NCBI GenBank assembly: GCA_022567655.1
Contig: JADFGO010000007.1
Location: forward strand, 1-44,489
Source of the DNA: Candidatus Neomarinimicrobiota bacterium
GTDB taxonomy: Bacteria > Fidelibacterota > SORT01
Length of the DNA stretch: 44,489 nucleotides
Direction: 5' to 3'
In this document: positions 3,324-44,489 of the stretch, one piece after another
Numbering within the stretch: position 1 is the first letter of the stretch
Layout of the letters: every line of letters begins with the position of its first letter
Program-made: the position numbers and the translations under genes
Notes under the pieces: model-generated
What the model saw: only the letters and a program-made list of their open reading frames with translations
What the model was told of the DNA's origin: nothing
Databases searched by the model: none

Positions 3324-3998
3324 TTATCTCACAGACAAATTTTTGTAATAACGGCAAAACCTTTTCAAGTTGCACCGGTCGCATAACGGCTTCCTCGCTT
3401 TGCACGTCTGCCTGCCGTGAGTGATAATGTTTATGTGGAACGAAAAACCTTTTCCCTTCGGGAAGATTTCCGACATCAGTTTATATGTTTTTTCCGGGGG
3501 AGTCCCTTCGGGAACGAATCCGAGCCGTGCGCAAATTCTGTTGATGTGCGTATCGACCGGGAACCTGTCCGCCTCGCAGGCAAAGGAGAGAACGACGTTT
3601 ATAGTCTTGATCCCGATTCCCCTGACCTGAGTGAACGTACTTTCAACCCAATCGGGGTCCTTGTCGCATATCCAATCGATATCGAGGCTTCCCCAGTTTT
3701 CGGTGATGAAGTTCAGCGTTTCCTTGATATATCCTGACTTGGCGGGAGCGAGTCCCGCGACTCGAATTGCGTTTTCTATTTTTTCTCTTGGTGTCGATTG
3801 TACTTTTTCCCATGTCGGATACCGCCTTCTCAGCTCCGCGTATCCCTTGTCTCTGTTCACGTCGTTGGTGTTATGGGAGAGGAGCGTGAGTATGAGCTCA
3901 TCAAGAACGTTGACCTTTCGATCGACTTTCGGAACTCCGTAAGTCTCTTCTAATAGCAGTGCGATCTTCTCCGCTCTCTGGCGTTGCTGCCTGCTCAT
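3324..3998 (-). CDS. nth: Endonuclease III (DNA glycosylase/AP lyase)
   Basis: Endonuclease III removes oxidised pyrimidines from DNA and cleaves the abasic strand in base-excision repair. The protein has 224 residues, normal for the family. The helix-hairpin-helix VRGIGIKTINVV carries catalytic Lys131, and the catalytic Asp149 sits in PVDTHI. The [4Fe-4S] cluster loop is intact, with Cys199, 206, 209 and 215 in the C-x6-C-x2-C-x5-C pattern. The usual LSAQATD segment reads LSHNTND, so Gln at that place becomes His/Asn; this may shift substrate preference but fits divergent Nth subfamilies. The start ATG overlaps the stop of the preceding 5-formyl-THF cyclo-ligase gene by 4 bp, indicating translational coupling. 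Confidence 0.93.
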   Translation of the reverse strand: MSRQQRQRAEKIALLLEETYGVPKVDRKVNVLDELILTLLSHNTNDVNRDKGYAELRRRYPTWEKVQSTPREKIENAIRVAGLAPAKSGYIKETLNFITENWGSLDIDWICDKDPDWVESTFTQVRGIGIKTINVVLSFACEADRFPVDTHINRICARLGFVPEGTPPEKTYKLMSEIFPKGKGFSFHINIITHGRQTCKARKPLCDRCNLKRFCRYYKNLSVR

Positions 3999-43591: not shown

Positions 43592-44038
43592 ATGAGATGT
43601 GTCTATTGTGATTCGGCGGATACTAAAGTCGTTGATTCACGGGCGGTTCAAAGCGATAACGCCATCCGGCGCAGACGCGAATGCGAATCGTGTTCAAAGC
43701 GCTTTACAACTTATGAATATATAGAGAACACTCCCGTAATGGTCGTTAAAAACGACGGCAGGAGGGAGACGTATGCGCGGCAAAAGGTGGAAAAAGCAAT
43801 ACAGATAGCGTGCAATAAACGTCCCGTGTCTCTCGAACAGATATTTTCCATAATAAATGACGTTGAACTTGAACTCGGCAATCTCGGCAGAAGGGAAGTA
43901 CCGGTTAAAGTGATAGGCGAAACTATCATGAAGAAACTCAAATCTATTGATGAAATCGCTTTTGTCAGATTCGCCAGTGTTTATAAGAAGTACAAAGACA
44001 CGCAGGAGTTCATCTCCGAAATCCACAGGATGAATTGA
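43592..44038 (+). CDS. nrdR: Transcriptional repressor NrdR
   Basis: NrdR binds NrdR boxes upstream of ribonucleotide reductase genes and represses them according to the ATP/dATP balance. The 148-residue protein has a zinc ribbon (Cys3, Cys6, Cys31, Cys34, in MRCVYC and CESC) followed by an ATP-cone domain (about 48-138: VVKNDGRRETYARQKVEKAI ...). The length is normal. GGGAGG is near the ATG. No nrd genes are in this window. It ends about 53 bases before the tRNA gene, which has its own promoter. Confidence 0.97.
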   Translation: MRCVYCDSADTKVVDSRAVQSDNAIRRRRECESCSKRFTTYEYIENTPVMVVKNDGRRETYARQKVEKAIQIACNKRPVSLEQIFSIINDVELELGNLGRREVPVKVIGETIMKKLKSIDEIAFVRFASVYKKYKDTQEFISEIHRMN

Positions 44039-44045
44039 TAAACTC

Positions 44046-44074
44046 TTGACTTCTGATCGAAAGCCGGGTATAAT
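44046..44074 (+). promoter_or_regulatory. Strong sigma70-type promoter for tRNA-Ala
   Basis: TTGACT (44046-44051) and a perfect TATAAT (44069-44074) are exactly 17 bases apart. The predicted start lies about 10 bases before the mature tRNA 5' end at 44092. This is the best promoter match in the window. Confidence 0.7.
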
Positions 44075-44091
44075 ATATCTGATATTTTAAT

Positions 44092-44164
44092 GGGGCCGTA
44101 GCTCAGCTGGGAGAGCGCCTGAATGGCATTCAGGAGGTCGTCGGTTCGATCCCGATCGGCTCCA
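44092..44164 (+). tRNA. tRNA-Ala (anticodon GGC)
   Basis: The 73-base cloverleaf is complete. The acceptor stem GGGGCCG pairs with CGGCTCC (one G-U). The D stem is GCTC/GAGC. The anticodon stem is CCTGA/TCAGG with loop ATGGCAT, giving anticodon GGC (alanine). The T stem GTCGG/CCGAT encloses loop TTCGATC. The discriminator base is A, and the next bases are CTA, so the CCA end is not encoded. Partial copies of its 3' half follow directly. Confidence 0.95.
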
Positions 44165-44215
44165 CTAATATTACCAACGGTTACAGAGAATTAAATTAAT
44201 TACAAAATTTAGATA

Positions 44216-44286
44216 CGCCTGAATGGCATTCAGGAGGTCGTCGGTTCTTCCGCAGGAACTCCTCTGGAGGATCCCGATCGGCTCCA
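44216..44286 (+). pseudogene. Partial tRNA-Ala copy B with T-loop insertion
   Basis: The anticodon arm, variable loop, T arm and 3' acceptor strand are kept almost exactly, but the 5' acceptor strand and D arm are missing, so it cannot fold as a tRNA. A 22-base insertion (44248-44269) sits in the T-loop between TTC and GATC. It can form TTCC-GCA-GGAA and CTCC-TCT-GGAG hairpins. Confidence 0.85.
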
Positions 44287-44338
44287 CTAATTATTACCAA
44301 TGGTTACAGAGAATTTAATGAATTACAAAATTTAGATA

Positions 44339-44409
44339 CGCCTGAATGGCGTTCAGGAGGTCGTCGGTTCTTCCGCAGGAACTCCTACGGAGGATCCCGA
44401 TCGGCTCCA
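44339..44409 (+). pseudogene. Partial tRNA-Ala copy C with T-loop insertion
   Basis: The same truncated layout as copy B, with the same-length T-loop insertion (44371-44392). The second hairpin loop is TAC instead of TCT while its CTCC/GGAG stem is unchanged. The anticodon loop has one change (GGCA to GGCG). After the discriminator-like A the sequence departs from the spacer of the other copies. Confidence 0.85.
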
Positions 44410-44489
44410 TTAATATCCCCTACATAATTAAAATCCGTACATTAATGTATATTTAATCTGTTTGTGTTAAATTTGCGCAAATGGATATC
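44410..44489. other. A/T-rich end of window with palindromes
   Basis: Two palindromes are visible: TACATTAATGTA (44438-44449) and ATTTGCGCAAAT (44471-44482). An ATG at 44481 has no visible ribosome site and only three codons remain, so no gene can be called. Confidence 0.4.

Follow-up and report, generated by a model that had tools for sequence, protein, structure and literature searches.

The window, that is, the whole stretch of DNA that was analysed, is one complete contig of 44,489 bp, one of the 150 that make up a 2.14-Mb draft assembly. At its right end, 3′ of nrdR, an intact tRNA-Ala(GGC) gene heads a tandem array of displaced and interrupted copies of its own 3′ part. The elements of the array are the following:

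44046–44074, + strand: candidate sigma-70-like promoter (TTGACT-17-TATAAT) upstream of tRNA-Ala(GGC), proposed from an 11/12 consensus match only
44092–44165, + strand: tRNA-Ala(GGC), intact, head of the array (tRNA detection)
44166–44215, + strand: spacer 1, 50 nt (alignment of units)
44216–44286, + strand: displaced copy B, from tRNA position 25 to the discriminator, with a split T-loop
44248–44269, + strand: double-hairpin insert of copy B, 22 nt, TTCCGCAGGAA-CTCCTCTGGAG, between C56 and G57
44288–44338, + strand: spacer 2, 51 nt, with 3 substitutions and 1 indel relative to spacer 1
44339–44409, + strand: displaced copy C, with a split T-loop and one change in the anticodon loop
44371–44392, + strand: double-hairpin insert of copy C, 22 nt, TTCCGCAGGAA-CTCCTACGGAG, between C56 and G57
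44410–44489, + strand: 3′ flank of the last copy, as far as the contig reaches; the 6 nt directly past the aligned tRNA end (TAATAT) equal the start of spacer 1, after which the flank diverges

An earlier note on this DNA had recognised the intact tRNA-Ala(GGC), which is borne out, and had described two further copies of its 3′ half separated by near-identical spacers of 51-52 bases. Copies do start at 44216 and 44339, but they are not plain halves, as each carries a 22-nt palindromic insert that had been missed; the spacers are indeed near-identical, with lengths of 50 and 51 nt by the present boundaries. When the insert is removed, copy B is identical to the tRNA at 49/49 positions and copy C at 48/49, and in both copies the insert splits the T-loop GGTTC|GATCC at exactly the same point (TTC|G). 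The units are 122-123 bp long and 94% identical to each other. A covariance model of the split T-arm (R1) matches copy B at 44240-44278 (54.9 bits) and copy C at 44363-44401 (52.4 bits), the two copies fold better than shuffled sequences (z -3.1 and -4.1), and an Rfam scan of the window returned nothing beyond the tRNA. As the earlier note had also stated, no integrase or cargo lies between the copies. The spacers of about 50 nt are too short for any ORF, and a search of 43900-44489 gave no terminator-like site. Since the contig stops 80 bp past the last copy, further units may lie beyond its end.

The insert consists of two hairpins, each of 4 bp with a 3-nt loop (TTCC-nnn-GGAA CTCC-nnn-GGAG), and shows compensatory changes between loci. 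Specifically, 97.8% of the cells in the two helices are paired across 23 aligned T-arms, with changes on both sides, a figure that benefits from the partial selection of these rows for hairpin pairing; rows recovered by the tRNA tail alone (L168, L180) agree with the double hairpin. The helix variants include TTCC/GGAA, TCCC/GGGA, TCTC/GAGA and others. A single long hairpin would leave 75.5% of the cells paired and was rejected as a description of the insert. Within the window there are 3 matches to the insert at up to 3 mismatches, where 0.02 are expected, and the genome holds 16 TTCCGnAGGAACTCCnnnGGAG-like sequences at the same tolerance as against 0 for a control with the reversed pattern; the occurrence of the insert is far beyond chance. 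One of the 3 window matches, a weak one at 3492-3513 (- strand) within an apparently coding stretch, is probably due to chance and was not taken for a true insert.

The palindrome is found in several other settings. On contig 139 a whole tRNA-Ala(TGC)-like gene has a split T-arm, and ARAGORN calls it as a tRNA once the insert is taken out. tRNA-Lys(TTT)-like 3′ halves with split T-loops, with no intact tRNA adjoining, form a dispersed family (L015, L059, L066, L080, L088), which is a SINE-like bacterial repeat. Some copies sit outside tRNA copies, in the loops of unrelated hairpins (e.g. L071, L072, L082, L011). The palindrome is not always of the 22-nt type either, being TCCCGAACGGAGTTCGGGA behind tRNA-Asp and CCTGCCCGACTGGCAGACGTAGTCGGTCAGGCGGG behind tRNA-Ser(GCT) in the window's genome. 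At L248 (G103:C89:1525-1735) the palindrome recurs alone, with a period of about 46 bp and no complete T-arm match.

The search of the whole genome and of related genomes that had been proposed earlier shows that the same architecture recurs widely, in two phyla. When public genome contigs were scanned for the split T-loop, one other contig matched, from a metagenome-assembled genome (MAG) deposited as Bacteroidetes bacterium, where a tRNA-Gln is followed by two tRNA-Gln copies, each with the same kind of insert, and a tRNA-Glu tail copy upstream is likewise split. As this MAG is absent from the 245 genomes of the host phylum that were searched for the pattern, it points to a second phylum. 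Those 245 genomes yielded many more split-T-loop loci, such as a tRNA-Lys(CTT) with four tandem tail copies (L073), a tRNA-Ser(TGA) with two (L075) and a tRNA-Ser(CGA) with one (L060). Model R1 matches 34/245 host-phylum genomes, in 17/84 genera, and 21/198 genomes in the phylum of the Bacteroidetes MAG; for 33 of 55 sampled matches, a nearby tRNA or tmRNA on the same strand is the source of the copy. In all, there are 44 tRNA-array pairings in which an intact tRNA or tmRNA is followed by 1-5 remnants of the same gene (about 42 loci, one of them being counted for three tRNA-Ser genes). The longer arrays are regularly spaced at 110-145 bp (five copies in L244, four in L218), and at three loci the intact gene is a tmRNA, with split-T-loop copies of its tail behind it (L219, L226, L238). 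The insert holds the same T-loop position across copies of about 20 isoacceptors and tmRNA. Displaced copies contain the tRNA tail starting at position 57, in many cases together with the T-stem or a longer stretch, and are split between C56 and R57; the anticodon arm is missing from many of them. At one tRNA-Gly locus (L121:1050-2150, G051), the intact gene is preceded by whole tRNA-Gly copies with palindromes in the D-, anticodon- and T-loops and followed by two GIY-YIG units in tandem.

The orientation of the remnants can also be assessed with loci that were not selected on the insert. In the window's genome, 4/40 intact tRNAs (Ala, Asp, Pro and Ser) have downstream tail copies and 0 have upstream ones, and a control with mismatched tRNA pairs gave a match in 1/409. 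Among loci fetched for other reasons, 19/19 tail copies are downstream and 0 upstream, and a palindrome directly precedes the tail in about 15 of these 19. The median folding energy of the 30 nt preceding the tail is -5.6 vs -0.8 kcal/mol (p = 1.5e-9), part of which is a G+C effect. Taken as a repeat class, the existence and anatomy of these arrays are well supported; the class is without a description as far as the literature searched shows, and the window holds a small ORF-less array of it. In the open-licence papers that were searched, neither bacterial tRNA tails carrying T-loop hairpins nor GIY-YIG units placed after bacterial tRNAs are described.

Some related units carry a gene. An ORF for a GIY-YIG nuclease lies between the tRNA and the last remnant in 14/44 arrays and is missing from 30/44, the window's array included. 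Counted across 16 genomes without regard to the insert, 31/51 short PF01541 ORFs have an intact tRNA or tmRNA no more than 400 bp away, as compared with 0/6 long PF01541 proteins (mostly UvrC-sized) in the same genomes. The bacterial ORFs are about 80 aa long, consist of the catalytic domain only and end near it, and NCBIfam gave no name for five of these short ORFs. They are found between tRNA-Ser and a split copy (L069, L063), as tandem units behind tRNA-Ser and tRNA-Asn (L120, L110), behind tmRNA (L119, L165) and, in the window's own genome, behind tRNA-Asp (at G000:C101) and tRNA-Ser(GCT). At several loci the ATG lies 2-4 nt past the tRNA 3′ end (L069, L063, L120, L112), a position that suggests leaderless mRNAs released by tRNA processing.

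At the nrdR-tRNA-Ala locus, a related genome (G002) lacks the array in the orthologous position, and in another (G001, L054:2058-3300) the same tRNA-Ala is followed by a 1.15-kb island bounded by an unsplit 3′-half copy. Presence and absence are thus polymorphic at this locus, with the array in the window, none in G002 and a different island in G001, a polymorphism between genera and not between strains. The array-free locus and the island at the same site mark this tRNA-Ala as a recurrent target. The G001 island contains a DUF5678 ORF and an aspartic protease-like reading frame, and no integrase.

A possible origin of such units is offered by SegB, a GIY-YIG homing endonuclease of phage T6, which cleaves inside tRNA genes, stimulates tandem amplification of a tRNA segment and has RAWTSGAAC as its preferred motif (PMC13096335). 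The reverse complement of this motif is GTTCSAWTY, which is the T-loop consensus, and the insert splits it after GTTC; the match leads us to propose T-loop cutting and repair as the origin of the units. A GIY-YIG endonuclease of SegB-like specificity would cut the T-loop motif GTTC|GAWTY of tRNA genes, and repair from a unit-bearing or misaligned template would insert a unit, or amplify it in tandem, downstream. Each time, the first tRNA would be rebuilt in functional form and the old tail displaced, while the hairpin insert would leave the displaced copies with a broken cut site and without the tRNA fold, so that they would be neither recut nor read as tRNA. Short units of the window's type would be non-autonomous, spread by a nuclease encoded elsewhere or by recombination alone. 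Each insertion restores a T-loop target in the first tRNA, so the model needs cutting there to be inefficient; counting against it, the palindrome also occurs outside tRNA copies and is not tied to T-loops alone. The bacterial ORFs need not share the specificity of SegB, a link drawn here from motif comparison. Overall, a homing-type mechanism stands at about an even chance in our view, and that the window's array is an ORF-less member of a tRNA/tmRNA-parasitic repeat class made by T-loop cutting and repair seems to us evenly balanced between right and wrong.

Several known systems resemble the arrays in part. SegB and other free-standing GIY-YIG homing endonucleases of T-even phages share with them a nuclease gene beside tRNA genes, a preferred motif in the tRNA T-loop and the tandem amplification of tRNA segments; they are phage-borne, and the available part of the source mentions no hairpin-split remnants (PMC13096335). 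Here, in contrast, the arrays lie on bacterial chromosomes, the ORFs, about 80 aa long, stop close to the catalytic domain and many units have no ORF. The double-hairpin elements and repetitive hairpin-forming elements of fungal and sponge mitochondria are short paired hairpins with conserved stems that are dispersed, also within RNA genes (PMC2800124). Two adjacent small hairpins with conserved stems, and dispersed copies at unrelated sites, are both present here as well, but the likeness is one of architecture only, since the present elements are bacterial, hold a strict T-loop position in displaced tRNA copies and are linked to GIY-YIG ORFs. Rickettsia palindromic elements, also bacterial, are palindromic repeats that insert into genes, those for RNAs included; they are longer than the insert and are set apart by description, and we know of no tRNA-tail array or nuclease link for them. 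REP/RAYT repeats are likewise short dispersed palindromes. To our knowledge T-loop placement is not a feature of REP elements. The window's genome has one Y1_Tnp domain gene, and a Y1 transposase as the mover of the palindrome was dropped as no link to it was found.

Other origins for the array have to be weighed against T-loop cutting and repair, three of which (remnants of integration, a tandem duplication and a tRNA-derived repeat family) had been offered by the earlier note. The last comes closest, the array being one member of a widespread repeat class of tRNA and tmRNA tails. Tandem duplication contributes to the growth of the class. In its fullest form, slippage or unequal crossing-over would have duplicated the tRNA 3′ half and its flank, and dispersed palindromes would later have entered the T-loops of the dispensable copies, hits in intact tRNAs being lethal and lost. 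The palindrome is, indeed, a dispersed genomic repeat that also sits in the loops of other hairpins (L071, L072, L082, L011), and the tRNA-Gly copies of L121 show palindromes in three different loops. Moreover, some ORF-less arrays (e.g. L239, L062, L219) have a duplicated flank, with spacer-like sequence after the last copy, which plain tandem duplication also predicts, whereas GIY-YIG units mostly lack it; on this mixed result of the flank comparison, insertion and duplication may both operate. Nevertheless, ordinary duplication leaves unexplained that unselected remnants are only downstream (19 to 0), that the insert keeps to a near-constant C56|R57 position and that GIY-YIG ORFs directly follow tRNAs, and we consider it, on its own, rather unlikely.

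The footprint of an integrative element, with islands integrated at the tRNA by a tyrosine integrase and then lost, was the comparison stressed earlier, and it fits poorly. Elements that integrate at tRNA 3′ ends also target 3′ halves, keep the tRNA intact and leave direct repeats, and the G001 island with its 3′-half repeat at the same tRNA-Ala is of this kind. Unlike them, the units here are tiny and in tandem, the small units examined yielded no integrase, and those with an ORF carry a GIY-YIG nuclease. An uninterrupted identical att core is not shared by the repeats either, as a structured insert of 22 nt splits the T-loops of both B and C; this origin is improbable. Much the same holds for a functional RNA array, in which transcripts from the tRNA promoter would act as decoys or regulators, for instance against toxins that cleave tRNA, and the hairpins would stabilise the T-arm. 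A good promoter-like site, the lack of a terminator between tRNA and copies and the better-than-shuffled folding (z -3.1 and -4.1) are in keeping with it, as is the known amplification of phage tRNAs against a tRNA-cleaving defence (PMC13096335), but many displaced copies lack the anticodon arm, terminator-like hairpins with trailing T-runs lie between the copies in some arrays (L244) and the orthologous G002 locus has no array, which leaves it little probability. Lastly, an assembly or binning artefact, which the earlier note had kept in view, might be suspected 80 bp from a contig end in a draft of 150 contigs. It is very unlikely indeed, as copies B and C are not identical and other genomes show this architecture in the interior of contigs measuring 68 kb to 1.1 Mb.

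T-loop cutting and repair, if extended to the class as a whole, would describe a selfish element of bacterial tRNA and tmRNA genes for which we found no description, a reading that we put forward tentatively and hold to be quite possible, if short of an even chance. In this reading the tRNA promoter apparently drives a minimal GIY-YIG nuclease that would cut T-loops, regenerate the host tRNA and leave growing arrays of displaced tails made immune by the double hairpin, with ORF-less arrays as non-autonomous satellites. Repeatedly breaking and rebuilding essential tRNA and tmRNA genes, with one copy always kept, would show how selfish DNA can reside within genes that are essential. If true, this would (i) give a role to many small orphan GIY-YIG proteins of bacteria, (ii) provide chromosomal relatives for the SegB mechanism of phages and (iii) account for clusters of tRNA pseudogenes and for some of the assembly breaks beside tRNA genes.
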